From: a bacterium
GTDB lineage: Bacteria > Electryoneota > JAOADG01
Reading direction: 5' to 3'
Assembly: GCA_030247525.1 (NCBI GenBank)
Contig: JAOTSC010000017.1
Span: 1-32,990, forward strand
Length of the DNA: 32,990 nucleotides
Below, piece after piece: positions 3-17,208 of the stretch. The notes beneath the pieces are model-generated. The model saw only the letters and a program-made list of their open reading frames with translations. It was not told where the DNA came from and did no database searches. Each line of letters begins with the position of its first letter. Positions within the stretch are counted from its first letter, which is position 1. The position numbers were made by a program, and so were the translations under genes.

Positions 3-812
3 GAACTTCCCACCGGTACTACCTTCATGGTGCAGGGTTACTATAAGGATTATTTCAATCTCATTGGTACTCAGACTGAAACCTATGGTCCGTTGACAGT
101 CGACCGTTATGCAAATAAAGCGTATGGTCGTGCTCGCGGTTTTGAAATCGATGTTGACCACACCTTTGAGAACGTTGCTAACACCGGTGAATTCCGGGCA
201 AACATGACATACGACTTCTCGTTTACCGCCGGCAAGAGCTCATCGCAAGATGCCGATGCGCAGAACCGGTTGTTGGGTGTTCCCGCGTATACGGAAGAAT
301 ATCCGTTGGATTGGGATGAGCGACACCGCATCAATGCAAGCACCGCTTTACAATTCCGCGAAGGCAAGTTCCCGCAACTGGGTAGCGTCCGGGTTCCGTT
401 GGACGACTGGCTGATGTCGGTTGAGTTCCAGTATGGATCGGGTGTACCATATACCCCGTCGAAGTACACCACCGGACAAGACGCCAATACGATTCCGACG
501 AACAGTGCACGGTATCCATGGACGGAAACCACCAACTTGAAGTTTGAGAAGTACTTCCGCTACGGTAGTAAACCGGCAAGCGGCGGTCGTGAGAGCCGTA
601 CAATCTTCACTGTTGGTATCGATATCAGCAATGTATGGAATCACAAAAACATTAACAGTCTGTATTCTGAGACCGGGAATCCTTATCAAGCGGTTCACCC
701 GGAAAACCCGACGTATAATCCGTTTGACAATCGCGTAGAATACGATGCCAACCCCCGTAACTTCGGCCAACCAAGACAGATATTGCTTCGGTTGGGCGTG
801 TCTTGGGAATAA
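3..812 (+). CDS. TonB-dependent receptor, C-terminal barrel (5' truncated by window edge)
   Basis: This is the last 269 residues of an outer-membrane beta-barrel, open at the left edge of the window. Alternating aromatic/polar strands separated by Tyr/Asn/Gly-rich loops are visible throughout. Segments such as RARGFEIDVDHTF, DWDERHRINAS, QYGSGVPYTP, NLKFEKYF and the closing RQILLRLGVSWE match the last strands of TonB-dependent receptors with a carboxypeptidase-like regulatory domain, as found in FCB bacteria. In that family the barrel imports substrates across the outer membrane using TonB energy, or acts as a surface secretion or attachment component. The plug domain and TonB box lie outside the window, so the substrate cannot be inferred. 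It ends Trp-Glu rather than in the usual terminal Phe. The next gene starts 19 bases later, suggesting co-transcription. Confidence 0.75.
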   Translation, partial: ELPTGTTFMVQGYYKDYFNLIGTQTETYGPLTVDRYANKAYGRARGFEIDVDHTFENVANTGEFRANMTYDFSFTAGKSSSQDADAQNRLLGVPAYTEEYPLDWDERHRINASTALQFREGKFPQLGSVRVPLDDWLMSVEFQYGSGVPYTPSKYTTGQDANTIPTNSARYPWTETTNLKFEKYFRYGSKPASGGRESRTIFTVGIDISNVWNHKNINSLYSETGNPYQAVHPENPTYNPFDNRVEYDANPRNFGQPRQILLRLGVSWE

Positions 813-831
813 GGGGAGCTGGGAGTAATCA

Positions 832-2517
832 ATGAAGAAACGAATCTTATTGGCGGTGCTCTTTTTGTTGCTGGCAATGATTGTCGGATGCGACAAAGAC
901 GAGGGTACCCCGCCAGATATCACAAGAGGAACGCCGATTTCCGGTAACTGGTCAGGATCGCATGGCGGTGTTTTCACTGCAACTGCCGATCTGACAGTTC
1001 CGGCAGGTCAAACGTTGACCTTACAACCGGGTACTGAAATCCAGTTCGATCGGGGTGTCAAACTTGATGTTTATGGGAAGATTGTCGCGATTGGTAGTAA
1101 AGGTCACGAGATTATCTTTACTACTGGCGTTAACAGTCCCGACCGTGGTGTATGGGGTGGTGTTATCCTCCATACCAACACCGACACATCGAAATTTAAA
1201 TTTGTACACTTCCGTTGGGGTTCAAAGTTTGAATTGGTTTCCGACACAATCGCAACGGTAGGCAATGTCTTCAAAGGCATTCTGTCGGTACACGATGCAA
1301 AAGCGGTAGTCGAGAATTGCAGCTTTGCCCGTTCGGGTTGGGATGGAGTAGATGTGCAGGGTGGACAAGGGTATGCCCGGGTCGATCACTCTATCTTCTT
1401 TAAAAATGCATTCAATGGTGTTCGGGTTCGTCATGGCGCACAAATCGTTGTGACGAATTCAATCTTTATTACGAATGACGACGCAGCTATCCGTGAAGCA
1501 TTACCCGGTGGTGGTTCATTAACTGGCAACACGAACGATATTTGGAACAACGTTTCCAATCCACCGCGTGTAAGTGAATTAGGGCGAGTTATCCAAGCGA
1601 TGCCTGGTGATATTTCGGTTGACCCAATGTTTGCCGACCCCGATAATTTCGATTTTACACTGTTACCCGGTTCACCAGTAATCGATCAGGGAGATGCCTC
1701 CTTTACTGACGATCCCGATAACACCCGAACCGACATGGGTGCTTATTACTATCATCAGTCACCCTATGAAATTTTTGGTCCGTTGCCGAGTCACATCGGA
1801 CCCGGAACCTTTAAAGTCGTTTATGATGTTACCGTACCCCAAGACTGTACAGTAACGATCGCCCCCGGAACAGTTTTCAAGTTCGACGGCTTGTATGCTA
1901 TGCATGTTATGGGAACGTTGCATGCCGACGGTACGAATGACAACTGGATAACCTTTACTTCCAACAAAGAAGCGCCTGACCGTGGCGACTGGAAGAATAT
2001 TTACTTTGACGGGAATAGCGCAACTGGCAGTTCGATGAGCTATTGCAAGGTGAAGTATGCCAGCAATTTCACCCCTAACTCACATATTGCGATTGGTGGC
2101 ATCTCTGTGAATGCGGCTGCGATTTCGCTCAACAATGTGTATGTCGAAGAGTCGCTGTTCGATGGAATTCACCTTTTGAACGGTGCTGCTGGTACTTTCC
2201 GGAATCTTGATATAAACGGGTTTGGCCATTACGGTATCAGTTGCGAGTTGAACATTGTTACTGCTGTTGAGAAATTCAAAATTCGCAATGGTTTGGGTAC
2301 TGGAATCAATATTACCAATAACTCATCGCCTCATTTCTCGAATGGTCTCATTGTCGATAACGGCACATCTGGTGTTCGAATCGAACAACTTTGCAATCCG
2401 GTTTTCAATTTTATGACGATTGCAAATAACCAGTATAACGGGATGTCGGTGATTTCAAACTCGAATCCCACGCTTACGAATTCGATCATTGCGAGTAATT
2501 CGTTAAATGGTATTTAG
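832..2517 (+). CDS. Right-handed beta-helix lipoprotein, ended early by an in-frame TAG
   Basis: The 561-residue product starts with a lipoprotein signal (MKKRILLAV...MIVGC, Cys20), so it should be exported and lipid-anchored. A GGGAG Shine-Dalgarno sits six bases before the ATG. Two copies of one module follow, at about residues 35-105 and 315-400. Each has an N-terminal hydrophobic strand (DLTVPAGQTL / DVTVPQDCTV), a PGT-x-x-x-F turn, a V-x-G-x-x-x-A-x-G turn and a PDRG-x-W motif, leading into parallel beta-helix coils rich in N-N, GNT and NSII repeats. The segment SPVIDQGDASFTDDPDNT is the closing motif seen at the end of such helices. The role is probably surface adhesion or glycan binding, but no catalytic site is recognisable. 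The reading frame continues after the TAG (see the fragment at 2518-2778), so the annotated protein lacks its last 86 residues. Confidence 0.8.
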   Translation: MKKRILLAVLFLLLAMIVGCDKDEGTPPDITRGTPISGNWSGSHGGVFTATADLTVPAGQTLTLQPGTEIQFDRGVKLDVYGKIVAIGSKGHEIIFTTGVNSPDRGVWGGVILHTNTDTSKFKFVHFRWGSKFELVSDTIATVGNVFKGILSVHDAKAVVENCSFARSGWDGVDVQGGQGYARVDHSIFFKNAFNGVRVRHGAQIVVTNSIFITNDDAAIREALPGGGSLTGNTNDIWNNVSNPPRVSELGRVIQAMPGDISVDPMFADPDNFDFTLLPGSPVIDQGDASFTDDPDNTRTDMGAYYYHQSPYEIFGPLPSHIGPGTFKVVYDVTVPQDCTVTIAPGTVFKFDGLYAMHVMGTLHADGTNDNWITFTSNKEAPDRGDWKNIYFDGNSATGSSMSYCKVKYASNFTPNSHIAIGGISVNAAAISLNNVYVEESLFDGIHLLNGAAGTFRNLDINGFGHYGISCELNIVTAVEKFKIRNGLGTGINITNNSSPHFSNGLIVDNGTSGVRIEQLCNPVFNFMTIANNQYNGMSVISNSNPTLTNSIIASNSLNGI

Positions 2518-2778
2518 TTCAAGATTTCTTCTCAGCTAACCCACTCGAACAATCTGTTTTATCGTTCTGGTGCCGATTCGACGGGTTTACTGGTCGTAAT
2601 CGAAAACTTAACATCTCGGGCGCTCCCATTCGATACTACGGAAATAGTCAGAAATCCACTGTTTATTGGTGGAACGCCAACGGATTATCATTTACAAACC
2701 ACGTCACCAGCTCTTCACCGCGCCAGCGATGGCACGGACCTTGGTGCTTATGGCGGCCTCGGTTTATTTAAACACTGA
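2518..2778 (+). pseudogene. In-frame 3' remainder of the beta-helix lipoprotein after TAG
   Basis: The frame used by the preceding gene stays open for 86 codons after TAG (2515-2517) and ends at TGA (2776-2778), 17 bases before the next ATG. The translated text is plainly the missing end of a beta-helix: HSNNLFYRSG, then NPLFIGGTPTDYHLQ, SPALHRASDG and TDLGAYGGLGLFKH. These match the standard closing pattern of the family (NPLF-x-G...DYHL...SPA...DLGAYGG). No start codon with a ribosome binding site precedes it, so it would not be translated alone. The whole gene is best read as 832-2778 with one nonsense codon at position 562 of 648. Confidence 0.8.
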
Positions 2779-2795
2779 CGGAAAGGGTTGATTGG

Positions 2796-5597
2796 ATGCT
2801 AAGCAGGATTCCTCTTTTCCTAATGGCATTGCTGACTTCGACGGTGTGGGCCGCGATGGAAGTTCCGCGTGTTGCGCCCCGCGGGCCGGTTCGGAAAGAT
2901 CCGCCCTCCGCACAAGTCTATAACTTGCAGATGGAAAACCGTGTCCATCGAGCCAGCGGCATTTGGATGAATATTACTAATTATGGCTTCTTCGGAAACC
3001 TCGGTCGCGAAGACGGTGATGCATTAATTGATCCGGAGTATCCCGGTGTCTGGGCACCACAATTAGAGTACCCTGGTGGTTCAAATCGCCAATACATGTT
3101 CATGGGAGCATTGTGGGTTGGTGCAATGATTCGCTCGCAAGGTTCCGAGTTTCCGCGGGTTTCGGTCGGTATTGACGGATGGACCAACCCGAATGGAAGA
3201 CCGCGAGGTGAGTTTTTTCCGGGTGAAGGTTCTTCGAGCGGAATTATCGAGCGTAGCACGAAACTGAACGCTTACAACCGACTTGGCGCTTATATCACCG
3301 ATACGACCAACGCGGTAAGTCAACAAGATTTTGAAGCTACCTACACAGATACCGTTAAAGGCCAGTCACTATACAATTCTAACGACGAGATCGATGGTCC
3401 TCACTTCCCGTTGGGTATTGAAGTGAAACAATCCAGCTATGCTTGGACTTACAACTACGCACAGAATTTTATCATCATCGATTATGAGTTTAAAAATATC
3501 GCCACGAACTATCTGAAGAACCTGTACATCGGGCTCTACATGGATGCCGACGTCGGTCTTGTCAGTGAAGGCGATCGTCATACCGATGATATCACAGGTT
3601 TTCAAGAGTTCTACTATCCACCGGTTCGTCCGGACGGATCTCAGGATTCACTTGTAATCAATACCGCATGGATTGCCGACAACGACGGTCGTCCCCATAC
3701 CGTTGCTTCTGGTTCAGAGTTTACTGTACCGGATGTGTTTGGCGCTCGAGTGTTACGTGCTCCGAATCCCCGCTTGAAGACCAGTTACAACTGGTGGATT
3801 TCGTTTGGAACAGCTGCCAATGACTTTGGTCCATCTTGGATCGATGATGAATCGGAAGGTAACTGGACGGCTTCCTATGGTACCCCGATGGGTGATAAGC
3901 GGAAGTACCACGTATTGTCGAATCGCGAATTCGATTATGATCAATTGCGCGTCGATAACCGAACTTGGATCGAAGAACATCCCCAACGCGATTTAGATAA
4001 TCCGGCGATTCAGCATGAATGGCGGGTACCTGATGCCGGTAATGCGACCGATTTAGCCAATGGTTACGATACCCGATTCTTGTTATCGTGGGGTCCGTTA
4101 GGTGTCTTCGATTACTTAGATCCACAAGGGAACCGAGTTTACCGATTGAATCCCGGCGAACAGTTCTCGATGACAATTGCATTGGTGATGGGGCAAGGGT
4201 TCCACGATCCTAACAACCCGCAAATCGGTAACACGAATATTAATAACAGCCGTTTCCGATTTGACTTGCTGCAACGTGCCGCCGCTCAAGCCGCCCGTGT
4301 TTACGACAATCCGATGAAAGATACCAAGACGCGGCGGTATCCAAACGGCGATGGGTGGTTTGGCGAAGATGTCGGTACTGATGGTCTCTTTGCGGAACAA
4401 GCAGGTGACAGTGTCGTGATCGATGGTATTTATCACGATATCTATCCCGGTCCCGATGCCGACGGCACGGAGAACAACGGTCGGATCGATTCGTTAGATC
4501 AAACCCGAACAGAATTTGCTTTACGAACCGAAGACATTCATCCCTGGAAACCGGCACGTTACGATTATACTTCGGGCAACGGTATTCTCGATCCGGGTGA
4601 CTGTGAACCCGACTTCCTCGGACCGCCCCCGCCCCCGGCACCGGTGTGTTCCGTATTTACGACGGCAACTTCGGTCAAGATTCGCTGGCGACCAATGCCT
4701 TCGGAAGACCCCGCCTACTCCGATCCTTTCTCGGGATTGCAGGACTTTGAAGGTTATCGGCTGTATGTATCGAATACCGGACTGGAAAGTGAATTCTCGT
4801 TTATAAAGCAATGGGATCAGTCGGATTACGCTTATTATGCCGGCAATGATTCATTAGTGACGATTCCAGTGCCGCAGGATTCCATCGACCTCCATCCGGA
4901 ATGGTATCCATTGGTTAGAACCGGGACCGATGGTAATCCAGTTTATCGGCGACCAGTCGGTGCCAATACGGGCTTTGCGGAGATTATTGACAGTATGCGA
5001 GTCACCGCGCGAATTACTCGTGGTGGTGTGACGGTCGATACGACGTATTGGGACAAGTATTACGAATACGAAATCAAGAATGTTGCGCCGATTTTTGCTC
5101 GCTACTATGCGGTTACTTGTTACGACTTTGGCGATCCGAAAGGTGGTACCGAGTCGCTGGAAACATCGAAAACCGCGACCTCTTTCCGAACTGCACCATC
5201 AGGTGAACCGTCGAAGAAGGTCGGAGTTGCACCGAATCCGTACCGGGTAGATCAGAATTACACTGTTTCGCATTCGGGTGGATTACAGTGGGAAAATCAG
5301 GATGATGGTACTGTCGACTTCTTCCCACAACAAGACCGGAGAATATGGTTCTACAATCTTCCGAAGCAAGCGTTGATTCGAATTTTCACTGTTTCGGGTG
5401 ATGTAGTAACAGCTATCCCGCATAACATCGCGGGCGACAACAATCTCTGTGTCAATTTCGATTATGCCGAGTGCTGGAATCTCCAGAACCGGAATGAGCA
5501 AATGGTTGCAAGTGGCTTGTATTTCTTCTCCGTTGAGGATAAAACCCCAGGCGGATCAAGCACGATGCAGACCGGTAAATTTGTTGTGATTCGCTGA
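2796..5597 (+). CDS. Large exported protein with FN3-like and C-terminal FlgD-like/sorting domain
   Basis: This 933-residue protein has a signal peptide (MLSRIPLFLMALLTSTVWAA, cleavage near residue 20). Its first part (about 45-530) begins with a conserved-looking block, ITNYGFFGN...WAPQLEYPGGSNRQYMFMGALWVGA, of a type seen in uncharacterised secreted proteins of FCB candidate phyla. An Asp/Gly-rich stretch at about 545-605 (PGPDADGTENNGRIDSLDQ, then NGILDPGD) looks like calcium-binding loops. A Pro-rich linker (GPPPPPAPV, about 609) leads to an FN3-like segment (SVKIRWRPMPSED...FEGYRLYVS). The last 130 residues (VGVAPNPYRV...IRIFTVSGDVV...ASGLYFFSVED...KFVVIR) have the layout of FlgD-Ig/Por-type sorting domains. 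It is therefore likely surface-exported by the Por machinery. No enzyme motif was recognised. Confidence 0.7.
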   Translation: MLSRIPLFLMALLTSTVWAAMEVPRVAPRGPVRKDPPSAQVYNLQMENRVHRASGIWMNITNYGFFGNLGREDGDALIDPEYPGVWAPQLEYPGGSNRQYMFMGALWVGAMIRSQGSEFPRVSVGIDGWTNPNGRPRGEFFPGEGSSSGIIERSTKLNAYNRLGAYITDTTNAVSQQDFEATYTDTVKGQSLYNSNDEIDGPHFPLGIEVKQSSYAWTYNYAQNFIIIDYEFKNIATNYLKNLYIGLYMDADVGLVSEGDRHTDDITGFQEFYYPPVRPDGSQDSLVINTAWIADNDGRPHTVASGSEFTVPDVFGARVLRAPNPRLKTSYNWWISFGTAANDFGPSWIDDESEGNWTASYGTPMGDKRKYHVLSNREFDYDQLRVDNRTWIEEHPQRDLDNPAIQHEWRVPDAGNATDLANGYDTRFLLSWGPLGVFDYLDPQGNRVYRLNPGEQFSMTIALVMGQGFHDPNNPQIGNTNINNSRFRFDLLQRAAAQAARVYDNPMKDTKTRRYPNGDGWFGEDVGTDGLFAEQAGDSVVIDGIYHDIYPGPDADGTENNGRIDSLDQTRTEFALRTEDIHPWKPARYDYTSGNGILDPGDCEPDFLGPPPPPAPVCSVFTTATSVKIRWRPMPSEDPAYSDPFSGLQDFEGYRLYVSNTGLESEFSFIKQWDQSDYAYYAGNDSLVTIPVPQDSIDLHPEWYPLVRTGTDGNPVYRRPVGANTGFAEIIDSMRVTARITRGGVTVDTTYWDKYYEYEIKNVAPIFARYYAVTCYDFGDPKGGTESLETSKTATSFRTAPSGEPSKKVGVAPNPYRVDQNYTVSHSGGLQWENQDDGTVDFFPQQDRRIWFYNLPKQALIRIFTVSGDVVTAIPHNIAGDNNLCVNFDYAECWNLQNRNEQMVASGLYFFSVEDKTPGGSSTMQTGKFVVIR

Positions 5598-5619
5598 TCG
5601 CTGAGCCGAGGAGTTTCTA

Positions 5620-6639
5620 ATGAAACGCACATGGTTGCATATAATCAGGCTGATCCCTCTCCTCTTGCTGCCGGCGCTTGTGTTTGCGCAGGCGAAGGTC
5701 GGCACTTCGACCTTCCAGTTCTTGAAGATCGGGCCATCAGCACGCGCTGTCGCAATGGGCGAAGCATTCATCGGAATCGCTAACGACGCTTCTGCGACTT
5801 ACTACAATCCGGGCGCAATGATCGTCATGAAACAGCCGAAATTCATGTTTACTCATGTGAGTTATCCGGCCGGTGTGAAGTACGATTATGTCGCTGGTAT
5901 TTATCCGATGCCGCAAGTATACGGGGTTGCCGGAGCTTTCGTATCAGGATTAACTACAGACAATATCACTGAGACGACACCGGAAATGCCTTATGGTACT
6001 GGACGAACCTTCAACGTATCGGAATGGACAATTGGCGGCTCTTACTGCCAGCGGCTAACCGATAAGTTCTCAGTTGGCTTTACCGGACGTTACATTCGAT
6101 CCGATTTGGCGGATGTTTCCGCGAATGGGTGGTCGGCCGATGTCGGCACCTATTACGAAACCGGCTGGCGAAATATTCGGATTGCTATGGTGATCCAGAA
6201 TTTTGGACCGGACGTAAAGTACATCCAGACCGAACATACTTTACCGATGATTTTCAAGTTTGGCGGCGCTGCTGAAGTCTACAAGAGGAATGACCATACG
6301 GTTTTGGTGGCATTTGAAGGGTGGCATCCCAACGATAACATCGAAATGGTAGCAATTGGTGCCGAGTATGATTGGCGGAATTTTGTCCAGTTCCGTCTTG
6401 GCAAGAAGATTAACGGTGTAACTCGCGATTCTTGGGAAAAATACCAAGGAAATCGCACCAGTAACGATCCGTTTGTCGAGTATCCCGTTTTCGATGAAGA
6501 TGGCGGAATATCATTCGACGGCGCATCGGTAGGTTTTGGCGTCAAGCTTCCAATGGGTTTGTCAGTCGACTATGCGTTGACAAACATTGGTTACTTCGGC
6601 GACTTGCATCGTTTCACGCTCAGTTATTCAATGAAGTGA
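5620..6639 (+). CDS. PorV/PorQ-family outer-membrane beta-barrel protein
   Basis: A 339-residue protein with a signal peptide (cut near VFAQA, residue 24-25). The mature N-terminus KVGTSTFQFLKIGPSARAVAMGEAF, followed by ANDASATYYNPGAM, is the hallmark of the PorV/PorQ (UPF0164) family. The rest is alternating beta-strands (FSVGFTGRYIRSD, WRNIRIAMVIQNFG, VQFRLGKKIN, LSVDYALTNIGYFGDLHRFTLSYS) typical of a FadL-like barrel. In characterised T9SS systems PorV receives cargo from the translocon and passes it to the attachment complex. The position directly before a gene encoding a T9SS-type sorting domain supports a cargo-shuttle role, although this is inferred. GAGGAG lies six bases before the ATG. 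The next gene begins seven bases after its stop. Confidence 0.85.
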   Translation: MKRTWLHIIRLIPLLLLPALVFAQAKVGTSTFQFLKIGPSARAVAMGEAFIGIANDASATYYNPGAMIVMKQPKFMFTHVSYPAGVKYDYVAGIYPMPQVYGVAGAFVSGLTTDNITETTPEMPYGTGRTFNVSEWTIGGSYCQRLTDKFSVGFTGRYIRSDLADVSANGWSADVGTYYETGWRNIRIAMVIQNFGPDVKYIQTEHTLPMIFKFGGAAEVYKRNDHTVLVAFEGWHPNDNIEMVAIGAEYDWRNFVQFRLGKKINGVTRDSWEKYQGNRTSNDPFVEYPVFDEDGGISFDGASVGFGVKLPMGLSVDYALTNIGYFGDLHRFTLSYSMK

Positions 6640-6646
6640 GGGTAGT

Positions 6647-9600
6647 GTGAACCATCCATTGAACCGACGTTCCCTCGTCAAACTGGTTTTGGTGATTGCC
6701 GCAATATGCGCGGTTGCCATTCCTGCGATAGCGGTCGACGTTTCCGGTTCGGTTTCCGGAAACTGGACACGAGGATTCAGTCCCTATCGGATAGTCGGAG
6801 ACATTACCGTGCCTCCCGATTCGGCGCTTTTCATTGAGGCGGGCGTTGACGTTGTCTATACCGGTCCGTATGCGATATATGTGAATAACGGGGCAGCTCT
6901 GCGCGTCCGCGGCGATTCCATTGTCGGCAGTTCGACATCGTTGGATACCGTTATGTTCCAAACCGACCCCGCCGTAACCGATACGTTACAATGGGGTCGC
7001 GGGATCCGCTTTACGAATGCAAACAACTTCTCGGAAATACGTTACGCAAAGTTTGCTCGTCTTCGTGCCAGTGGCGTTTGGCCAGAGAATAACGGCGGCG
7101 CATTGTATGTCGAAGGTTGCAGCCCAAAGATAAAGTTCGTCGAATTTTATCGTTGCAAAGCGGCATTCTACGGTGGTGCAATGCACTTCTGGTTTTCCAG
7201 CAGCACGGTCGAGCACGCATTGATCGACAGTTGTAACGCTATTGAGGGCGGCGGCGGCGTTGACATGTGGTTCTCCACGATTACTTTCAAATTTGTAACC
7301 GCTGTTTCCAATTACATCCCACTTGCGATTCAAACCAATGGCGGGGCGATTTTGGTTGGTTCAAGTTCTAATCTGTCATTGTCTCACTGCGTTCTCTATC
7401 GTAATGAACTCCCATTAGATAGCGGTATCGCAAAAATCGGCGATGGTAGCGCATATGTTGCGCGTTACAGTTACTGGAGAGCGATTTCCGCCAGCAATGG
7501 TAATGTATCAACTGAACTGAACAGCACTCATTGGACGCAAACTCCACCATGGAGCCCCAGCATTGTAAGTCCTTTGATCGACGCCGGTGATCCCAACGAA
7601 CCGGTCGGTGCAGAATTGCTGCCGAATGGCGGTCGGGTTAATGTCGGCTATTACGGACAAACAAGTTTAGCAACCAAGTCGGTCGCTGTTGCTGAAATAT
7701 TCCCCAGTCCCATCGATACGATAAAATTGGGGGATTTAAAAATCGGTAAACAGATTAGTGCGACAAAGCGCTTTCGTAATATTGGACGGGCTCCATTAGC
7801 TCCGTTGTTCATCAAGAACATGCACTCGGATAATTCTATCGTCCTGATCCAATATGGCGACTCACTGGTTACACAAATCGATAGTCTTCGACCGTTGTAT
7901 CCAGATAGCACTTTTGAGCTTAAAGTGTACTGGCGCCCCACTACGATTGGCGTGCAGCGTTCGCACATAACGTGGCGTTGGAATGACCGCGACACGAATT
8001 ATGTTTATGACACGATTGTCGTGCAAGGCAACGGTATCAACCCCCGAATAAATGTAAATGTTGACACATTGAATTTCGGCGAGCGGTCAAATTACTCACG
8101 CGACACCTTACGTGCAGTGTTATCGAATAGCGGTACTACCGAACTAAGCGTTTCCGCGATTTCAGTCGGATCGGTGTTTGACGGTGGTTTTGGATCAACT
8201 TTAACTGGGGCGGCACGAATCCCAGTTGACTCGACGAAGCAACTGAATGTTACATTTGAACCGGACAATGTGGGATATTTTGCTGCTCGGCTTTCCATCG
8301 TGAATAACGACTCATTACGATCGATTTATGTTCACGGTTACTCCCGCGGTTCTTTCTTTGAGTCGGATACATTCTATCATGCGGGCTTTGTTCCACAAGG
8401 TTCCACCAGGGATTATCAGGTAAGGGTTTATAACAACGGAAATGCAACATTACAAATTGACAGTGTTGTATTCAACAATCCGATTGTTCGAGCAAATTTT
8501 ACTTCACCGATTTTGATCGGCATCGCCGATACCGTACTACAACGTCCCGATACTGGATTTATCCCGATTGTTTTCGCGCCAACAGCACTCCGTACCGATA
8601 CAGTACGCGGTATTGTCTACACTAATGATGGGAAACTGGATACAATCCGGATTATTGGACGGGGTATTCAATATGGTGAGTACATCTCGAATTCAATAAC
8701 CGGGATTCTGGAACCGGCAACCAGCGGTATTCCTTATGTGATTACCGGTGAAGTATCGATTCCGCGAACATCGACTCTTCGAATTCGCCCCGACGTTCAC
8801 ATTCTCTTTGAACCGGGTTCATCGCTGAAGGTGGAAGGCACGATTATCGCTGAAGGCACCCAGACGCAACCAATCGTTTTTTCTGCTCAAGATTCATCTA
8901 ACTTCCGTACACCGTTCTTGGTGTTTAATGAAACATCGGGTGACAACAAGTTATCGTTCGTAACAATAACTGGCCCTGACGCCGACATTACTGTTCGACA
9001 ACCAATGATTACAGCCACGCGCTCAAACTTCACCCTTGACCATTGCTCAATAATCGGCGGTAATGCCACTGATGGCGCTGTAATGAAGTTACTTCTAAGC
9101 AATGCGAAGTTAGTTCGTTGTGAATTGAGAAATCACACCGCGACCAATGGTGGTGTGATCGCTTTGGTCGATAGCCGGGCTACAACTATCCGCAGTGTAT
9201 TTGCGGACAACCGAGCTACCGGCAACGGTGGTGTGATTCATGCCGGAAATGGTTCAGAAGTTATTTCGTACAACGATCTCTTCTTGCGGAATCACGCGGC
9301 ATACGGTGGTGTGGTCGCCATGTTCGACAACTCTGAAGCAACAGTTAACAACAGCGTATTCCATAATAACATCAGCGACTCCATTGCAACTATCGGCTAC
9401 ATGTCGCAGTCGGTGGCAAAGATATCTTCTTCGATTATTACCGGAACGCAAGGTTCAGTTGATTTTGCCGGGCCTCTCGGTAGCTATTCTAATCCGTTGA
9501 TCAGTTTTTCGTTGATCGAGCGGTCGAATAGCGCATATACTCCGCTCGCCTTGTGGAATAACGATACGGTGAATTTCCAGTTAGTCAGCGGAGCTCAAGC

Positions 9601-10603
9601 AATCGATGCCGGCGATCCGAACCCATCGAAGAATGATTATTGGTTCCCACCAGCGATGGGTACAGCGCGAAATGATGCTGGACTCACCGGCGGACCGAAG
9701 TCCGGTGAAGGCGAGTTGAATGCGATGGGCATCCTTTTGATGGACAATCCGGGAATTGGCGCTCTACCGGACGTTGCGATCTATCGAATCGATCCGAATG
9801 TTACGGTTGATTCTTTGCAGTTCGTACCAACTTCGGGAACACCGCAATACTTGCCATTGACAGTTCTGCCCAACGGAACCGACATCTACCGCAGTCGGAT
9901 CACGACGACCGGATCGGCAACGGTGACTGCGATAGGTCATAATACTGCGAATCCAGCAGAACGATATCGTGTAACCCGTCTGGTCGGAGTCGTTCAATCG
10001 GGCACGATGGCAATTGGTCCATGGACGGTTGGTGTTTCGGAAGGGGCTGGATTCGTCCGTGCGACATTGGCAATTTCGAGCGAGGCGACCGGATTTGGTC
10101 CGGATATTGAAATCGGCGCGTCTTCAAATCGTATTGTTACTCTGACATTTGATGGTGAATTGCCGGGTGGCCAGCGATTTGCTTTGTTAAAGCAAAGCAA
10201 TGGAAACTGGATGGAAGTAGCTTCAGTAACGCGTAGTAATGGCAGTGCTACCGCCGATGTTACCGGTTCTGGAACCTATCGCATCATGGCGGTGGAAGAT
10301 TTGACACCTGTCGTTTCATTACCTACGGAATTCGCATTATCTGATGCATTCCCGAATCCATTTAACCCTGTGACCTCGTTGAAGCTATCAGCACCGATCG
10401 CTGGATACTACCGAGTTACAGTGTATGACTTGCTGGGTCGCACCGTTGCAGTCTTACTGAATAGCGATATTTCTGCCGGAACGCACACCCTCCGGTGGAA
10501 TGCAACGACAAGCAATGGCGCTCCAGTTGCTGCTGGTATTTACTGGGTGAAAGCCGAAAGCGCCGCGAATTCGGCGGTACGTAAACTGGTCTTGATGAAG
10601 TAG
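6647..10603 (+). CDS. 1318-aa beta-helix / HYDIN-like repeat protein with T9SS type A sorting domain
   Basis: The start is GTG (6647) with GAGGG five bases upstream, and a signal peptide ends near AIA (residues 27-29). From about 30 to 345 is a right-handed beta-helix opening with SGSVSGNW...DITVPPDSAL and closing with SPLIDAGDPNEP. About 350-675 holds three Ig-like repeats of the choice-of-anchor D / ASPM-SPD-2-Hydin type (for example NVDTLNFGERSNYSRDTLRA). A second beta-helix spans about 680-1000 and again ends in AIDAGDPN. The C-terminus from about 1221 (LSDAFPNPFNPVTSLKLS...VYDLLGRTVAVL...AAGIYWVKAES...KLVLMK) is a textbook T9SS type A-like sorting signal. It is probably a secreted, surface-attached cargo protein. 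The duplicated beta-helix entry module is shared with the lipoprotein at 832. No catalytic motif is visible. Confidence 0.85.
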   Translation: MNHPLNRRSLVKLVLVIAAICAVAIPAIAVDVSGSVSGNWTRGFSPYRIVGDITVPPDSALFIEAGVDVVYTGPYAIYVNNGAALRVRGDSIVGSSTSLDTVMFQTDPAVTDTLQWGRGIRFTNANNFSEIRYAKFARLRASGVWPENNGGALYVEGCSPKIKFVEFYRCKAAFYGGAMHFWFSSSTVEHALIDSCNAIEGGGGVDMWFSTITFKFVTAVSNYIPLAIQTNGGAILVGSSSNLSLSHCVLYRNELPLDSGIAKIGDGSAYVARYSYWRAISASNGNVSTELNSTHWTQTPPWSPSIVSPLIDAGDPNEPVGAELLPNGGRVNVGYYGQTSLATKSVAVAEIFPSPIDTIKLGDLKIGKQISATKRFRNIGRAPLAPLFIKNMHSDNSIVLIQYGDSLVTQIDSLRPLYPDSTFELKVYWRPTTIGVQRSHITWRWNDRDTNYVYDTIVVQGNGINPRINVNVDTLNFGERSNYSRDTLRAVLSNSGTTELSVSAISVGSVFDGGFGSTLTGAARIPVDSTKQLNVTFEPDNVGYFAARLSIVNNDSLRSIYVHGYSRGSFFESDTFYHAGFVPQGSTRDYQVRVYNNGNATLQIDSVVFNNPIVRANFTSPILIGIADTVLQRPDTGFIPIVFAPTALRTDTVRGIVYTNDGKLDTIRIIGRGIQYGEYISNSITGILEPATSGIPYVITGEVSIPRTSTLRIRPDVHILFEPGSSLKVEGTIIAEGTQTQPIVFSAQDSSNFRTPFLVFNETSGDNKLSFVTITGPDADITVRQPMITATRSNFTLDHCSIIGGNATDGAVMKLLLSNAKLVRCELRNHTATNGGVIALVDSRATTIRSVFADNRATGNGGVIHAGNGSEVISYNDLFLRNHAAYGGVVAMFDNSEATVNNSVFHNNISDSIATIGYMSQSVAKISSSIITGTQGSVDFAGPLGSYSNPLISFSLIERSNSAYTPLALWNNDTVNFQLVSGAQAIDAGDPNPSKNDYWFPPAMGTARNDAGLTGGPKSGEGELNAMGILLMDNPGIGALPDVAIYRIDPNVTVDSLQFVPTSGTPQYLPLTVLPNGTDIYRSRITTTGSATVTAIGHNTANPAERYRVTRLVGVVQSGTMAIGPWTVGVSEGAGFVRATLAISSEATGFGPDIEIGASSNRIVTLTFDGELPGGQRFALLKQSNGNWMEVASVTRSNGSATADVTGSGTYRIMAVEDLTPVVSLPTEFALSDAFPNPFNPVTSLKLSAPIAGYYRVTVYDLLGRTVAVLLNSDISAGTHTLRWNATTSNGAPVAAGIYWVKAESAANSAVRKLVLMK

Positions 10604-10611
10604 GACAACCG

Positions 10612-11205
10612 ATGAAAAAGATCATACCGATTCTCTTCACGGTGTTGCTGATTGTCGGCTGTAAAGACAGCGACGACGCAACAGGACCCACGGGCGATCC
10701 GCGTTCGCTCGTCAACACCGGCTGGGAGCTGTTTGAAGTTGGCGAGTACACTGAAGCGCTATCGAACTTTTCGTTAGCATCGAGTATTGACCCGGGTTAT
10801 ACCGATGCAACGATTGGGTTGGGGTGGGCTAACATGCGGGTTACACCGCCACGTTTGACAGACGCAATAAATGCGTTTGAATCGGTGTTGCGGGTTTCCG
10901 CAAACTCGAACGATGCACAGGCGGGCAAAGCTTTTGCATTGCGCGGTAATGCCCAGTATAGCGAAGCTGAAGCAGCAGCGACCGTATTACTAAGCCGTTC
11001 GACGATTTGGGAATTCTCTCACGACGAGTCGGTGAATCGCCAGGACTTGTTAGTTTTGCGAGCGGCATGCCGGTTCTTAATCGGCAATTATGCGACAGCA
11101 TTGACAGCACTGCAAGAAGTAGAGCCTACCTTTAGCGTCGATGTCTCGACCATCGAAGGCAGAACGCAATTGGGTATTCGCATTGAGGAGTGGACACGAC
11201 GATGA
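10612..11205 (+). CDS. Tetratricopeptide-repeat lipoprotein
   Basis: A 197-residue protein with a short lipoprotein signal (MKKIIPILFTVLLIVGC, Cys17) and AGGA six bases before the ATG. After a Ser/Asp linker it carries TPR-like helical pairs: GWELFEVGEYTEALSNFSLASSIDPGYTDATIGLGWA at about 37-73, then DAINAFESVLR and a further degenerate repeat up to about 180. TPR lipoproteins usually act as periplasmic or outer-membrane scaffolds, and the binding partner here is unknown. Its TGA overlaps the next ATG (ATGA), so the two products are probably made together and may interact. Confidence 0.75.
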   Translation: MKKIIPILFTVLLIVGCKDSDDATGPTGDPRSLVNTGWELFEVGEYTEALSNFSLASSIDPGYTDATIGLGWANMRVTPPRLTDAINAFESVLRVSANSNDAQAGKAFALRGNAQYSEAEAAATVLLSRSTIWEFSHDESVNRQDLLVLRAACRFLIGNYATALTALQEVEPTFSVDVSTIEGRTQLGIRIEEWTRR

Positions 11206-13229
11206 GTATAATTTCCCTCAAATCTACGTCGGCTTCACGGCGATGGTGGTTCGCCACCCTCCTTGTCGCTGGTATGTTGCTTACAATTGCCGGCTGTGCA
11301 AAATATGATGGTTCGCAAACAGCGAATCAGTTGCCAATTGTCGAGTTTGCAACGACGCCACGTGATAGCTCAACATTTAATGCTGCTCCAATCATTTCTT
11401 GGTTCGGTCGAGACCCCGATGGATTTGTCGAGCTTTACAGCTACGCAGACATCATCGATCCAGCAGCGTTAGCCAATCCTACTACCTATGTCCCGCAGAT
11501 CCCACGCGACGCTTGGAAAACGACCGCTTCCACCAGTGATACCGTGATTTTGCTAACTTCGATTGGCGATACGACGCAACATATCTTCTATTTGAAAGCA
11601 ACTGACAACCGTGGTGGCGAATCACCAGTGATTTACCGTCGGTTCGATCGCACCAACCAACCACCAAACGCTCCAGAATTACGGGCACCGGATGACAGTT
11701 GGTCGAACCGGGTCGATATCACCGATACGCTTTTCTGCATCGAAAACACCAATGATCTTTGGCCTGGCATAACATTCAACTGGCGCGGCAGCGATCCCGA
11801 CGACCGGGTGGATCGTACGATTGCCTTAACCTATAAGTATTTCTTGATCAAAGCACCAAACGACACGATTGGTCGATTCGTCTCACAAAACTGGTCAACT
11901 ACCAAGAACATCGTGCTCTCTGGTTTGGAAACTGGTTCTTATCGTTTCGAAGTATACTCTCGGGATGACGGTTTAACGGTCTCGAAAGTACCTGGAGTCT
12001 TGTATTTCTCAATTCTTCGGCCGACCTATGATCGAAACGTATTGATCTACATGGAAGGTTCGAACGCAAGAAACGGCAACAACCGTAATGATTTGCTGCA
12101 CACGGATTCAGCTCGTGCTTACTATACCAAGTTGTTGAGTGATATCAAGACATCCTATCCCGAGTACCAGTATCTTTCTTACAACCAAAACGAACCGCAC
12201 GATGTCGAGTTTTACATTCATGGTGGAGCGTTGGTTGACAGTCTGCCGCCGAAAATTCTGTTGTCACGATATCGTGTAATCCTTTGGATGCAAGACGTAT
12301 TTCCGGCAGTCAACTCGGATGCTTACAACTACGAAAAGATTAAATTGTTCCGTGAGTACTTGCAGGTTGGTGGTCGCATGATGATTGCCGGTCGTCAATT
12401 GTCCCGCGTGGTATTTCCACCTCCAGCGAATGCGGCAACAGATTACGCAATCGCGAAATTGGCGTTTTTTAATACCTATTTTGGCGTTAATCTTCCTTAC
12501 GATGCAACGTATGCTGGAAACTATATCACGCCAAATCGAGCAGAATTCATCGGCACATCTCCGGCATTCGATCCGTTTGAGAGGACCGATTTCGACTCTA
12601 CCCGGATGCGCAATCTATTGTTTCCATTCACCGCCGCGAATCTTCCCTATACTGGATTGCCGGGAGTAGATTACATTGAGCGCGTTGGTGCATCGCGAAC
12701 TGTTTTTACGTTTGTCTCGAACACCGACACGTTAAACCCGTATGTCGGTGGTGAAGATGCAACGGTGATTGGTACTGATGTTCAAGTGATAAACGGCCAA
12801 ATTGTAACTTATCCACCTACTCCAACAAATTGCTTGATTCAAATCCAGCGCAACGGAGACTTGGAGAGTATCGACTCGGTAGTTAATCTTACCAAACGAA
12901 ACAATGGAAGTGTCAACTATCGTGGTGAAGTACGGTCGATTACCGGTCGTTATGCCTTCATTAGCTATCCCTATGGCGAGCCTTGGCGGAACAGCGATAC
13001 ATTGGCGGTGTATTACTATTACCGTGCGACCTCTGAGCGCCATAATAAACCAGTCTGTACGACCTATGAAGCGACACAGACTGTTGGTGGAACTAATGTA
13101 TCGCTCTTGTTAACTCGAACGGTAATGTGTTCCTATCCGTGGTACTTTGTAAACCAGACTACCGGTTCCGAGCAATTTGCAAGAATGTTGAATTGGCTGT
13201 TGGCTCCACCGAATTTCGATTTGCAGTAA
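11202..13229 (+). CDS. Large lipoprotein of unknown function
   Basis: I chose the ATG at 11202, which overlaps the previous stop as ATGA, over a GTG four codons upstream that lacks a ribosome site of its own. The 675-residue product begins MSIISLKSTSASRRWW and has a lipobox (LLTIAGC, Cys about 32). Residues about 45-280 look like two Ig/FN3-like beta domains (PIVEFATTPRDSS, ISWFGRDPDGFVELYSY; ITFNWRGSDPDDRVDRTIALTYKYF). A different alpha/beta region follows (RNVLIYMEGSN...YRVILWMQDVFP...LFREYLQVGGRMMIAGRQL), reminiscent of the DUF4350/GATase-like fold with a beta-strand, a helix and a G-G-x-x-x-I-x-G strand. No catalytic triad could be assigned. It probably sits on the cell envelope beside the TPR lipoprotein. 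The function is unknown. Confidence 0.65.
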   Translation: MSIISLKSTSASRRWWFATLLVAGMLLTIAGCAKYDGSQTANQLPIVEFATTPRDSSTFNAAPIISWFGRDPDGFVELYSYADIIDPAALANPTTYVPQIPRDAWKTTASTSDTVILLTSIGDTTQHIFYLKATDNRGGESPVIYRRFDRTNQPPNAPELRAPDDSWSNRVDITDTLFCIENTNDLWPGITFNWRGSDPDDRVDRTIALTYKYFLIKAPNDTIGRFVSQNWSTTKNIVLSGLETGSYRFEVYSRDDGLTVSKVPGVLYFSILRPTYDRNVLIYMEGSNARNGNNRNDLLHTDSARAYYTKLLSDIKTSYPEYQYLSYNQNEPHDVEFYIHGGALVDSLPPKILLSRYRVILWMQDVFPAVNSDAYNYEKIKLFREYLQVGGRMMIAGRQLSRVVFPPPANAATDYAIAKLAFFNTYFGVNLPYDATYAGNYITPNRAEFIGTSPAFDPFERTDFDSTRMRNLLFPFTAANLPYTGLPGVDYIERVGASRTVFTFVSNTDTLNPYVGGEDATVIGTDVQVINGQIVTYPPTPTNCLIQIQRNGDLESIDSVVNLTKRNNGSVNYRGEVRSITGRYAFISYPYGEPWRNSDTLAVYYYYRATSERHNKPVCTTYEATQTVGGTNVSLLLTRTVMCSYPWYFVNQTTGSEQFARMLNWLLAPPNFDLQ

Positions 13230-13230
13230 C

Positions 13231-15156
13231 ATGAATCTTCGTAGTACTACCGTCCCCCCTCCTATCGAGGGGGGACGTTTCACTCCAGTAAAGATGTGGT
13301 CGTCTTTGGCGATTGCATCGATAATTCTCATCCTGTTTATTCTCGTTCAACCGTCCCCAATCACCAATGTCGATTCTGGTTTGAAATGGTACGGTGCAAA
13401 AATCTATGCTGAGACGAGCGAGCTTTCCTTACCGGAGAGTGATTCCACGTGGTTGAATCAATTTCAGTTTCCTCCGGTTCCAAAACCGTATCTCTACCCG
13501 GTCAATGGAAGTATCTATCCAGTATTCCCTGCAGTACCGATGGTATTGAATGGTTTGGTGTATCGCTGGTGGGGTGAGAACTTCTGGTGGTTTTGGACAT
13601 TATTGGCGACGATGTCGTTGCTTGGTTTGCTGCTTTGGTATACCAAACCGTTTCTATTCAATCCCCATTTACTACTACTCGTTTTACTATTCGCTACCCC
13701 AGTCGCAGTGTATGGTGCGACTTATTGGGAACACTCGCTCGCTGCTTTCGTAGGCTGTGCTGGTGTAGTGTACTTACGTAGTTCACGACATTTGGTAACT
13801 CTGCTCGGAGGATTATTACTTGGGTTTGCTCCATGGTTTCGCCCGGAAATGGTTGCATGGAGTCTGCTGGCAATCATCGCGGGATGGGTGTTTCTCGCAA
13901 ATCGACAACGGTTGTGGGGGACCACTGGATTGATAACTGGATTGTTGATTGGAACCTGGATTCAACACCAGTTAACCGGGACATGGTTGCCGTTGCAAGT
14001 GTTGTCAAACTATGAAACCGGAGAAACTGTTTTAACGCCGGGTAGTAATGTCCGTTTTCCAATTCTGATTTATTTGGAACTCGTGCTGGGAGCGGGCGAC
14101 TGGTGGATTACAATCGTTGCCGTTCTGATGGTCATTGTTGGGATGATTGGATGGCGCTTGGGAAAATGGTATTCGGTTTTTTTACCTGCGACACTGCTTC
14201 TGTTTTTAATAACTCGGATGCTCGACCCGCTTCCAGTGTTTCATACCATACAAGCAAATGGACTGATTTATACTCTGCCGCTACTTCTAATTGCACCTTG
14301 GGGTGTTCGCAAACTTCCAAATCACTACATCTGGATTGCCGCCATAGCAGGGCTATTGATATCGATTGTCGCAATGGGGAAAGTAGCGCAAGGAATGCAT
14401 TGGGGAATGCGCTTCTTCCTTCCGGCAGCTTTTCCTTTAACAATTGCAGCTATACAGGCGTTGCGAGAAAAACCGCTCTCGAAGTTTTCGGCATGGTTGA
14501 GTGCAGTAGGTGTCTTAGCAATCACTTTCTATGGAGTGTTTTGGCATTCTGGAATCGCTTCCCGGCAAATCCAATTTGCCGATGTAGTAAGGCAACAACC
14601 TGAGCTGATTGCAACTGATGTAAGCTGGATCGGTGGCGATTTAGCGCCACTACTCAGTGAGCGTCCAATTTCCTTTATTCGTGATCGGGAAAAAATGGGT
14701 AGGTACCTGTTAACACTTAAATCACGTAATATCACAACATTTCAGTACGTCCGGAGCAATAGCAGCGATCCGCTAACCCAAATGGCACCGAATTTGGAAA
14801 AACTCATTGCGTTGCGTCGAGTGGTTGCTGCACCAACACCAGAAAAGGGATATGACTACCGATTGGAATTCTATAATCTTATCGGTGACACGATTTTGTT
14901 TGGATCATTAGCAGGGGAACTGGGAGCACTACAGTTTCTGAAAGAAGATTCGACGGGTTTGGAAGACGTCCGCTTGGCATTACGGTGGAATCCTGATGAT
15001 TCTCGACCGGCAATTGCATTGTTGGTGTTTGGTATTGAACATCGTACAGGTCGTTGGATCGATGAAGCCTTACGGTACTTCGATGTTCATCCTGTTCCCC
15101 AACAATTTGAAGCAATGGTAGCGGAAGCAAAGCGATTCAGAGTTTATATGCCTTAG
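13231..15156 (+). CDS. Polytopic membrane protein, possible GT-C-like glycosyltransferase
   Basis: A 641-residue integral membrane protein with roughly ten hydrophobic segments in the first 430 residues (for example SLAIASIILILFILVQ, FWWFWTLLATMSLLGLLLWY, LLLLVLLFATPVAVYG, LITGLLIGTWI) and a soluble C-terminal domain of about 200 residues. The first extracytoplasmic loop (about 45-90, NVDSGLKWYGAKIYAE...PVNGSIYPVFPAVP) and the overall layout recall GT-C/ArnT-type glycosyltransferases that use polyprenyl-linked sugars, but no decisive motif is seen. The start is uncertain. The ATG at 13231 lies one base after the previous stop without a clear Shine-Dalgarno. An in-frame ATG at 13294 begins right at the first membrane helix and would place a strong hairpin (13251-13277) upstream of the gene. 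Confidence 0.6.
   Translation: MNLRSTTVPPPIEGGRFTPVKMWSSLAIASIILILFILVQPSPITNVDSGLKWYGAKIYAETSELSLPESDSTWLNQFQFPPVPKPYLYPVNGSIYPVFPAVPMVLNGLVYRWWGENFWWFWTLLATMSLLGLLLWYTKPFLFNPHLLLLVLLFATPVAVYGATYWEHSLAAFVGCAGVVYLRSSRHLVTLLGGLLLGFAPWFRPEMVAWSLLAIIAGWVFLANRQRLWGTTGLITGLLIGTWIQHQLTGTWLPLQVLSNYETGETVLTPGSNVRFPILIYLELVLGAGDWWITIVAVLMVIVGMIGWRLGKWYSVFLPATLLLFLITRMLDPLPVFHTIQANGLIYTLPLLLIAPWGVRKLPNHYIWIAAIAGLLISIVAMGKVAQGMHWGMRFFLPAAFPLTIAAIQALREKPLSKFSAWLSAVGVLAITFYGVFWHSGIASRQIQFADVVRQQPELIATDVSWIGGDLAPLLSERPISFIRDREKMGRYLLTLKSRNITTFQYVRSNSSDPLTQMAPNLEKLIALRRVVAAPTPEKGYDYRLEFYNLIGDTILFGSLAGELGALQFLKEDSTGLEDVRLALRWNPDDSRPAIALLVFGIEHRTGRWIDEALRYFDVHPVPQQFEAMVAEAKRFRVYMP
13251..13277. repeat. GC-rich perfect inverted repeat (11-bp stem, 5-base loop)
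   Basis: CGTCCCCCCTC (13251-13261) pairs exactly with GAGGGGGGACG (13267-13277) around the loop CTATC. No T-run follows, so it is not a standard terminator. It could be a REP-like genomic palindrome or a translational/processing hairpin. It lies inside the membrane-protein frame if the ATG at 13231 is used, where it encodes PPPIEGG, or in its leader if the ATG at 13294 is used. Confidence 0.7.
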
Positions 15157-15183: not shown

Positions 15184-15202
15184 CATCCGCTAATAACGGA
15201 TG
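15184..15202. terminator. Hairpin terminator between convergent genes
   Basis: CATCCG (15184-15189) pairs with CGGATG (15197-15202) around a seven-base loop. Read on the minus strand it is followed by TTTTCTCT, so it best serves the cold-shock gene, whose stop is about 80 bases upstream in that direction. On the plus strand the downstream tract (CTCTTGATT) is weak, but it lies just after the membrane-protein gene ending at 15156. It is probably shared. Confidence 0.55.
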
Positions 15203-15284: not shown

Positions 15285-15497
15285 TTACCCTTTTATGATC
15301 GGTTGAACATTTTCGGCTTGCGGACCTTTGGGACCATCTTTCACATCAAATTCTACTTCCTGTCCATTTTCCAATGTTCGAAAACCACCACCCTGAATTG
15401 CCGAATAGTGAACGAATACATCGCGACCGCCATTATCCTGAGAAATGAAGCCGTATCCTTTCTCTTTCGAGAACCACTTCACTTTACCTTTCACCAC
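15285..15497 (-). CDS. CspA-family cold-shock protein
   Basis: A single cold-shock domain of 70 residues ([17 protein letters not shown]...), the usual family length. RNP1 (KGYGFI, residues 13-18) and RNP2 (VFVH, 27-30) are intact, as is the surface Trp8/Phe9 pair. Proteins of this family bind single-stranded RNA/DNA and melt mRNA structure in the cytoplasm, often after a temperature drop. I chose the GTG at 15497 over an ATG six codons upstream (15515) because AAGGA lies five bases before it and because the resulting N-terminus matches the family exactly. It is transcribed alone from its own promoter with a long leader. Confidence 0.9.
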
Positions 15498-15510
15498 CAG
15501 AATCCTTACT

Positions 15511-15746: not shown

Positions 15747-16847
15747 TTACTGATGTCCTTGAAATGATTGCAATTGAAACACTTTCCCCGGTTCCCATTC
15801 ATTTGGTAGATATCGCATCACTTCCTCTTGGAGTGACATTTTTTTTACACGCTCTATAGGGATCGAGTTTGCTAACAATAGCCAAGCAATTGACCGTGCT
15901 ATCGCGTTTCGCACCGCTGTCGGCTGAAAGCCTAACTCACTTTTCGCTTTGGCTGCATCATAAAAACCATAACGTTGATATAAACTGCGAAATCGCTTGA
16001 GTGTTAACTGGGGGGCCTTTCTCCGAAGTTTTGCATACGCTTCCATCGCTTTTACAGCAAGCGAACCAGTTGCCTTTCCCAACTCCCAACTTGGTGCAGA
16101 TAATCCTGTCAGTTCAGCAGTCGTATCATAAAACTCGCGAATCGTTAGATTTCCACCGGTTAAGATGTATCGCTCCCCGGGAATGCCCCGTTCTGCCGCC
16201 AAAAAATGTCCAACTGCGGCATCCGTGACATCGACAATCGACATCCCTCCGGGAATCGTTACCGGAAGTGATTGCATTAAAAAACGGTGTACCATTTGAG
16301 TCGATGGTGTTAACCGATAGTCATAATATCCCAATAGAACCGAAGGGTTTACCGTTACAATTGGAAGTCCGGTCGCCAACTGCATTTCATGAACGAGTTG
16401 TTCGGCACGGGTTTTTGCTTCAACATAGGGACTATCGAAATCATCGTTCCAATGCAACTCGGTTTTTGGTGAACGAGCATTACGGGAATACCCGATGGCT
16501 GCGGTAGAAGAGGTATATACTATCCTTTGCAGGGTAGAGCATTTTATTGCCGCTTCGAGAATGTTTTTAGTTCCCGTTACGGCAGTCTCTAAAATTGTGT
16601 TTCTCTTGTGAGGATGGAAATCAAAAACGGCGGCGGCATGGAATAGGTGAGTACATCCTGCTAATACGGAGTTTAGTGAAGCCGGTTGCAAGATATCACC
16701 GGTTACGACCTCAACCGGGAGACGTTCGATCCCAATTTTATTACTTTCAGAGCGAACCATCACACGAACCGGGATTCCTTGAGCGAGTAACACCCGAACC
16801 AAATTCGCCCCCAAATGACCCGTTGCACCGGTTACTACTGCGTTCAT
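15747..16847 (-). CDS. NAD(P)-dependent epimerase/dehydratase-family protein (extended SDR)
   Basis: A 366-residue extended short-chain dehydrogenase. The N-terminal Rossmann motif GATGHLG (residues 7-13), the acidic GD at 50-51, FHAAAV (69-74), YTSSTAAIG (111-119) and the catalytic YVEAK (Tyr141, Lys145) are all present, so the enzyme should be active. The closest families by eye are dihydroflavonol-4-reductase-like and hopanoid-associated sugar epimerase (HpnA)-like proteins. The substrate could be a nucleotide sugar, a sterol/hopanoid side chain or another carbonyl. The last 100 residues are basic and extend past the usual SDR core. It is divergent from the actA operon and upstream of the cold-shock gene. 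No partner genes are in the window, so the pathway is unassigned. Confidence 0.8.
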   Translation of the reverse strand: MNAVVTGATGHLGANLVRVLLAQGIPVRVMVRSESNKIGIERLPVEVVTGDILQPASLNSVLAGCTHLFHAAAVFDFHPHKRNTILETAVTGTKNILEAAIKCSTLQRIVYTSSTAAIGYSRNARSPKTELHWNDDFDSPYVEAKTRAEQLVHEMQLATGLPIVTVNPSVLLGYYDYRLTPSTQMVHRFLMQSLPVTIPGGMSIVDVTDAAVGHFLAAERGIPGERYILTGGNLTIREFYDTTAELTGLSAPSWELGKATGSLAVKAMEAYAKLRRKAPQLTLKRFRSLYQRYGFYDAAKAKSELGFQPTAVRNAIARSIAWLLLANSIPIERVKKMSLQEEVMRYLPNEWEPGKVFQLQSFQGHQ

Positions 16848-17061: not shown

Positions 17062-17208
17062 TGGGCAAGTGGGGGAACTCGAGCTCTATTTGTGAACCCC
17101 TTCACCATGAGTGTAAGATAGTGTGGGTTGGATTCACGCGATAGTTCTCGAATTGCCGCAATCCGCTTCCCCGCAATCAATCCATTTCTCGAAATCTCAA
17201 TCGGATAA

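Follow-up and report, generated by a model that had tools for sequence, protein, structure and literature searches.

Described pairings of an outer-membrane barrel with a protein that carries a C-terminal domain (CTD) for the type IX secretion system (T9SS) are those of PorV with PorU, PorQ with PorZ and PorP/SprF with type B cargo. PorU and PorZ keep their CTD, staying on PorV and PorQ, respectively, and a proposed role of cognate PorV-like barrels is to protect retained CTDs of this kind (PMC10202324); PorV is described as shared by type A cargo (PMC12618676). The partners of TonB-dependent transporters on the outer face of the membrane are known mainly as surface lipoproteins of Bacteroidota. 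Here we analyse an operon of eight plus-strand genes, g1 to g8 (Table 1), at positions 3-15156 of a 32,990-nucleotide stretch of DNA (the window), which is an entire contig (G000:C17) that starts inside g1. The host belongs to Electryoneota (AABM5-125-24), a candidate phylum within the Fibrobacteres-Chlorobi-Bacteroidetes (FCB) group (PMC10439189). Its genome (3.59 Mb, 98% complete, 305 contigs) has isolate SKW228 as its closest named relative, and other close relatives are titled Candidatus Electryonea, Tariuqbacter, Hatepunaea and LCP-89. An original prediction, made from the letters of the window, had placed the eight genes where we find them and had read them as a dedicated export set, with a PorV-family shuttle delivering a sorting-domain cargo. 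In our analysis the constant first member of the set is a TonB-dependent transporter, which points to a transporter complex and not to an export set alone. We see about an even chance that the operon encodes an outer-membrane uptake complex, a T9SS-anchored analogue of SusCD.

Conservation of the gene set

The gene order is kept in all 20 Electryoneota relatives with 20 kb of context (gene calls in the relatives were made mechanically), far beyond chance. The genes form a conserved unit, as had been predicted, and are not scattered singly. The variants of this order concern g5 and g6: families f3 and f8 lack both in the operon, and family f6 has them ahead of g4. In most relatives, not including the window's family, the next gene is a convergent GT-C/TPR gene, g9. 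Beyond the phylum, Zixibacteria-titled records, Cloacimonetes bacterium 4572_55 and several other lineages carry g1-g3-g4-g7 or g1-g3-g4, and a Delongbacteria-titled record that starts at a contig edge keeps g3-g4-g7; these phylum names follow record titles, which are often wrong for such assemblies. Because only g1, g3, g4 and g7 recur outside Electryoneota, the comparison of loci indicates that these four genes are the core of the system and that g2, g5, g6 and g8 are lineage-specific accessories. This core is both narrower and older than the eight-gene set as first described.

Mean pairwise identity within the phylum is 53, 55 and 52% for g1, g3 and g4, and 31, 30, 30, 36 and 25% for g2, g5, g6, g7 and g8, respectively. 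The equally slow rate of g1, g3 and g4 fits a complex, which is suggestive but not proof. The lipoprotein gene g7 was found, as a single copy, in 39/39 Electryoneota genomes (fragmentary in a few). The TPR lipoprotein g6 is missing from the operon in f3 and f8, and the membrane protein g8, put forward as a possible modifier of the cargo, is the fastest-evolving member and is not always adjacent to the rest.

The PorV-family barrel g4

The g4 protein matches the PorV/PorQ family NF033709 at 187.8 bits (cut-off 90) and scores 73.6 bits against the PorV equivalog NF033710, below its cut-off of 250. PorV is the sole PDB match of the g4 profile, which has no match to a BamG-type barrel, and no protein of the window matches a PorP/SprF barrel. 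The host has several PorV-family genes, with 13 matching stretches. The best of these is on contig C104, directly beside a C25 peptidase of the PorU type, and its orthologues in two further genomes (G001 and G003) are placed likewise. In trees of a sample of 51 PorV sequences the operon PorVs from all lineages cluster together. The TonB-linked PorVs form one clade (support 97/95), while the PorU-linked PorVs form a separate clade (100/100), and TonB linkage changes only once on the tree, compared with 16.7 times in shuffles. For each of the five further members of the TonB-linked clade, the PorV gene follows genes for a TonB barrel and a CTD protein, and a PorV gene on a plasmid of Rhodothermus marinus also falls in this clade. 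TonB linkage was absent from the larger neighbourhoods inspected outside the clade (contigs C104, C187, C142, C97, C49 and C91, and six genes elsewhere); for the other PorV genes outside it, linkage was judged from 1.5-kb flanks. Judged by its phylogenetic position, g4 is a specialised PorV paralogue and not the canonical translocon PorV. That g4 is the translocon's own PorV was ruled out, as the PorU-linked C104 gene and its orthologues form another clade, and with the canonical PorV being a separate gene g4 is not a general shuttle either.

In the literature searched, with subscription journals and preprints outside its scope, we found no TonB-PorV system and no PorV paralogue dedicated to a TonB-linked protein, nor any named system of exactly this composition, as the original prediction had stated. 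A second, distant triad of TonB barrel, 1214-aa CTD protein and PorV is present on contig C106 of the same genome (L066). The operon around it is homologous to one on the R. marinus plasmid pRMAR01, and the two CTD proteins share 36.7% identity over 84%. On another host contig (C142, L068) a 1692-aa C25 peptidase protein adjoins a further PorV-family gene, and these two are perhaps one more dedicated pair.

The exported partner g3

The export set had been proposed to pair PorV with the beta-helix protein g5. A PorV-family barrel and an adjacent CTD protein do form a dedicated pair, but the primary partner is g3. The sorting tail expected for g5 was found (type A, TIGR04183, 30.2 bits, cut-off 23), but g3, too, has a sorting-type domain at its C-terminus, and of the two neighbours of g4 it is the better conserved. 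The candidacy of g5 as the defining cargo was rejected, given the families whose operon has no g5-g6. In a profile search g3 of the window had no family match, and no C25 peptidase match was found in it. Among the C-termini of 26 g3 homologues the best family matches are to the PorZ tail (7/26) and the PorU tail (5/26). The type A tail was not matched in g3 of the window and was weak in 4/26 orthologues (best E 0.0017), and the type B tail was matched neither in the g3 orthologues nor in g3 and g5 of the window. By these profile matches the C-terminal sorting-type domain of g3 is divergent from type A. There is no consistent lipobox across the g3 orthologues.

The fold model of g3 (predicted local distance difference test, pLDDT, of 76) has as its top Foldseek matches GH116 and GH94 enzymes, with E values of about 1e-6 to 1e-5 and TM-scores of about 0.2. 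These enzymes share a beta-supersandwich region, and the model offers a hint only of a link to carbohydrate. Sequence searches of solved structures with g3 and g7 gave nothing useful. Copies related to g3 also occur elsewhere: three Zixibacteria-titled loci (L138, L143 and L148) encode four or five g3-like proteins in tandem with no PorV neighbour, and orphan Electryoneota copies are found at L074, L075 and L085 and on host contigs C244/C228.

The TonB-dependent barrel g1

The remaining 1044 residues of g1 are found at the end of contig C32, the last bases of which overlap the start of the window imperfectly. The part in the window is 76% identical to the G001 orthologue, and in the C32 part an N-terminal CarboxypepD-like region is present together with the plug and with 8 EF-hand-loop motifs. 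The CarboxypepD-like domain and plug are present in two orthologues, L073 (which matches CarbopepD_reg, with a Plug match slightly below cut-off) and L127, and the plug also in the g1 alignment. A TonB-box-like stretch, EEIxVTAxRP, is kept in the g1 orthologues. Since the plug and the TonB-box-like motifs are kept, import appears to be the favoured direction of transport. The SusC/RagA profile TIGR04056 does not match a full-length g1 orthologue. It gives a weak match, under cut-off, to the paralogous C106 barrel, which also matches PF25183, a family that we take to be Oar-like.

The g1 orthologues have a region of about 180-250 residues in a stretch with 22-29% Asp + Asn, bearing perfect EF-hand loops such as DLNENGRWDRGE. 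Each orthologue, also beyond the phylum, has 3-8 EF-hand loops (shuffled expectation 0.0085). We infer from these motifs that g1 binds calcium, and from the general architecture of TonB barrels the insert is presumably extracellular. Nothing relevant was found in the literature on EF-hand loops in TonB barrels. In genome G189 (L254, 10799-14141) two adjacent proteins with 5 and 10 EF-hand-loop motifs lie near a PorV-family gene.

The type IX system of the host and SusD

SprA and a PorU-type C25 peptidase were each found in 39/39 genomes of the phylum (E <= 0.001), with SprA over its cut-off in 35. The type IX route is therefore present in the host, in which SprA is split over contigs; the original prediction had suggested looking for further T9SS genes in the genome, and both the translocon and the peptidase are there. 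The GldM/PorM motor was found in 0/39 genomes with two profiles, for which no genuine positive control matched. SusD (PF07980) was found in 0/39 genomes of the phylum and 0/61 overall, and the Bacteroides ihuae control was matched. Because SusD was not found, the slot of a SusD-type TonB partner is vacant as far as PF07980 shows.

Accessory and lipoprotein genes

The families first assigned to the other genes largely stand. The beta-helix of g2 matches PF13229 at 1e-16, g5 has a HYDIN_VesB Ig domain in addition to its beta-helix and type A tail, g4 is of the PorV/PorQ family and g6 matches TPR_19 at 1.3e-8. In g2 the reading frame beyond a TAG codon at 2515-2517 continues as beta-helix for 86 codons up to TGA 2776-2778, and the orthologue in the nearest relative is an uninterrupted gene of 647 aa. 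An altered genetic code is not favoured, as g8 also terminates in TAG, and we leave the codon as a nonsense change, a strain variant or a sequence error. This codon also bears on the prediction that all gaps are of about 22 bases or less. The spacing is as predicted between g1 and g2 (19 bases) and from g3 onward (g3-g4 22, g4-g5 7, g5-g6 8, g6-g7 -16 and g7-g8 1), but the g2-g3 gap is 278 bases as called and 17 only with readthrough of the TAG.

According to a rule for surface lipoproteins, acidic residues follow the lipid cysteine (PMC12578637). They do so in g2 (CDKDEG) and g6 (CKDSDD). Counting lipobox orthologues with at least 2 acidic residues after the cysteine, 14/15 for g6, 13/20 for g2 and 8/17 for g7 follow the rule, compared with 16% of the other lipobox proteins of these loci. 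On this rule g6 and g2 look surface exposed, and g7 appears intermediate. From its first GTG g7 is 679 aa long, and not 675 as first given. Its model (pLDDT 83.6) has two FN3-like domains and a Rossmann-like domain, Foldseek returned only generic tandem FN3 pairs, and a distant orthologue has a DUF4159 match slightly below cut-off. The suggestion that g8 is a glycosyltransferase is matched in kind by NF047440 (the LA_3751/3752 family of putative glycosyltransferases), but at 114.9 bits the match is under the cut-off of 200.

Table 1. Features of the operon, with positions in the window
Feature	Positions	Strand	Description
g1	3..812	+	C-terminal 269 aa of a TonB-dependent outer-membrane transporter, truncated by the contig start
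g2	832..2778	+	Right-handed beta-helix lipoprotein; called open reading frame 832-2517
g3	2796..5597	+	933-aa exported protein with T9SS-type C-terminal domain; core
g4	5620..6639	+	PorV-family outer-membrane barrel, TonB-linked clade; core
g5	6647..10603	+	1318-aa beta-helix/HYDIN-like protein with T9SS type A sorting tail; accessory cargo
g6	10612..11205	+	TPR lipoprotein, probably surface exposed; accessory
g7	11190..13229	+	679-aa lipoprotein, two FN3-like domains and one Rossmann-like domain; core
g8	13231..15156	+	Polytopic GT-C-like putative glycosyltransferase; accessory, fast evolving
Terminator-like hairpin	15184..15202	+	28 bases 3' of g8; weak scan match

Promoter and terminator scans of the region gave counts not above those of shuffled sequence. 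Between the operon and a hopanoid-associated-epimerase-like gene on the minus strand (15747-16847), the minus strand at 15297-15500 appears, on reading by eye, to encode a short protein of the cold-shock type. A respiratory cluster at 17123-31700 encodes a QrcA-like multihaem cytochrome, a MoCo/FeS protein and NrfD and ActD of alternative complex III, and is completed by COX2, COX1, CtaA and UbiA genes.

Discussion

In the uptake complex that we propose, g1 would be the TonB-energised barrel, with its plug, its TonB-box-like stretch and its long insert of some eight EF-hand calcium loops. The g3 protein would be exported by Sec and then, via its C-terminal domain, through the SprA translocon. 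This domain would stay uncleaved and docked on a barrel of its own, g4, in the way that PorU sits on PorV and PorZ on PorQ. Held by g4, g3 would cap g1 on its outer side, where SusCD has its SusD lipoprotein, and calcium may stiffen or fasten the interface. The beta-helix cargo g5 could, together with g2 and g6 as surface lipoproteins, extend the surface and help to bind or process the ligand, and g7 may act as an outer-membrane lipoprotein scaffold. The physical complex of g1, g3 and g4, the retention of the g3 CTD and a polymeric or glycan ligand are what we infer, along with import as the direction.

Several points weigh against uptake. The operon has no digestive enzyme, unlike typical Sus loci, the near-universal presence of the set is as compatible with housekeeping as with nutrition, and orphan copies of g3 exist with no adjacent PorV. 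The resemblance of g3 to carbohydrate-enzyme folds comes with low TM-scores only, and the absence of SusD was judged from one family. TonB-dependent barrels are also capable of export. Export of a protein or polymer by g1, with the surface proteins processing it, has a precedent in Oar of Myxococcus, and the CarboxypepD-like N-terminal domain of g1 and the match of its C106 paralogue to the presumably Oar-like PF25183 are in keeping with it. We nevertheless hold this to be very unlikely, as there is no constant candidate substrate in the operon and import would equally account for the plug and TonB-box motifs. A set for secretion and display only is rather unlikely. On that view the g4 shuttle would deliver g3 and g5 to the surface, where they would form a layer for adhesion or protection, with the TonB barrel as a co-regulated neighbour. 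PorP/SprF shuttles, whose genes adjoin those of their type B cargo, serve as its anchor (PMC10202324, PMC12618676), and g5 bears a true type A tail. However, the set most constantly begins with the TonB barrel, the PorV clade follows TonB linkage in all members checked and g5 is dispensable.

The set might also be a module of envelope biogenesis, the barrel pair and the surface proteins helping to fold or assemble outer-membrane proteins. In Bacteroidota BamG, a FadL-type barrel, holds the extracellular lipoprotein BamH, and most FCB phyla are reported to have both (PMC12611786, PMC12578637), which gives an FCB-wide precedent for a FadL-type barrel with an extracellular protein. The set is near-universal and strongly conserved, with g7 in single copy, unlike most nutrient systems. 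Still, PorV alone matches the g4 profile in PDB, g1 keeps its plug and TonB-box-like motif, no BamA or BamD gene is seen in the operon and a separate FadL-like protein is encoded on contig C38, and we consider this explanation unlikely. Least probable of all is that these are functionally unrelated surface genes that were inherited together. The variability and fast evolution of g2, g5, g6 and g8 would suit such a reading, and it may apply to g8, but for g1-g3-g4-g7 it is largely refuted, since the order g1-g3-g4 is seen again in other lineages and in paralogous operons within one genome.

We speculate further, with somewhat less confidence than in the uptake complex itself, that non-Bacteroidota FCB lineages run an older, SusD-free form of SusCD, in which a TonB transporter has a T9SS-exported partner that is permanently held by a dedicated PorV paralogue, with a calcium-loop insert fastening both. 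If this is true, TonB transporters have a second solution for their outer-face partners, the type IX secretion and TonB fields are joined, and the many PorV paralogues in FCB genomes would be explained. The PorV subfamily of g4 would then mark such systems genome by genome. The related triad on the plasmid of the cultured R. marinus makes the idea testable.

Comparison with known systems

Like SusCD/RagAB of Bacteroidota, the operon has a TonB barrel with a CarboxypepD-like domain and plug beside a large surface partner and accessory surface lipoproteins. Unlike them it has no SusD family protein and encodes no enzymes, g1 has an EF-hand-rich insert, and the partner g3 has a C-terminal sorting domain and a PorV-family barrel of its own. 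The pairing of a PorV-family barrel with a CTD protein is that of PorU-PorV and PorZ-PorQ, and g3 C-termini match PorZ and PorU profiles; however, g3 has no C25 peptidase match and is linked to a TonB barrel, and the canonical PorU-linked PorV is separate. Type B cargo likewise has a dedicated barrel encoded directly next to it, PorP/SprF (PMC12618676), but g4, a PorV-family barrel, lacks any match to PorP/SprF, and no type B tail was matched in g3 or g5. With BamG/BamH of the Bacteroidota BAM complex the operon shares a FadL-type barrel that would hold an extracellular protein and an FCB-wide distribution. It differs in that g4 matches PorV among solved structures, a TonB barrel is present and neither BamA nor BamD is seen in the operon. 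The R. marinus pRMAR01 operon (RMAR_RS14125 to RS14100) has, unlike the window, a peptidoglycan-recognition protein and a serine hydrolase, and its CTD protein resembles g3 at the C-terminus only. The likeness to the window lies in its arrangement, which is, in order, an FG-GAP protein, a TonB receptor (RMAR_RS14120), a large CTD protein (RS14115) and a PorV/PorQ protein (RS14110).

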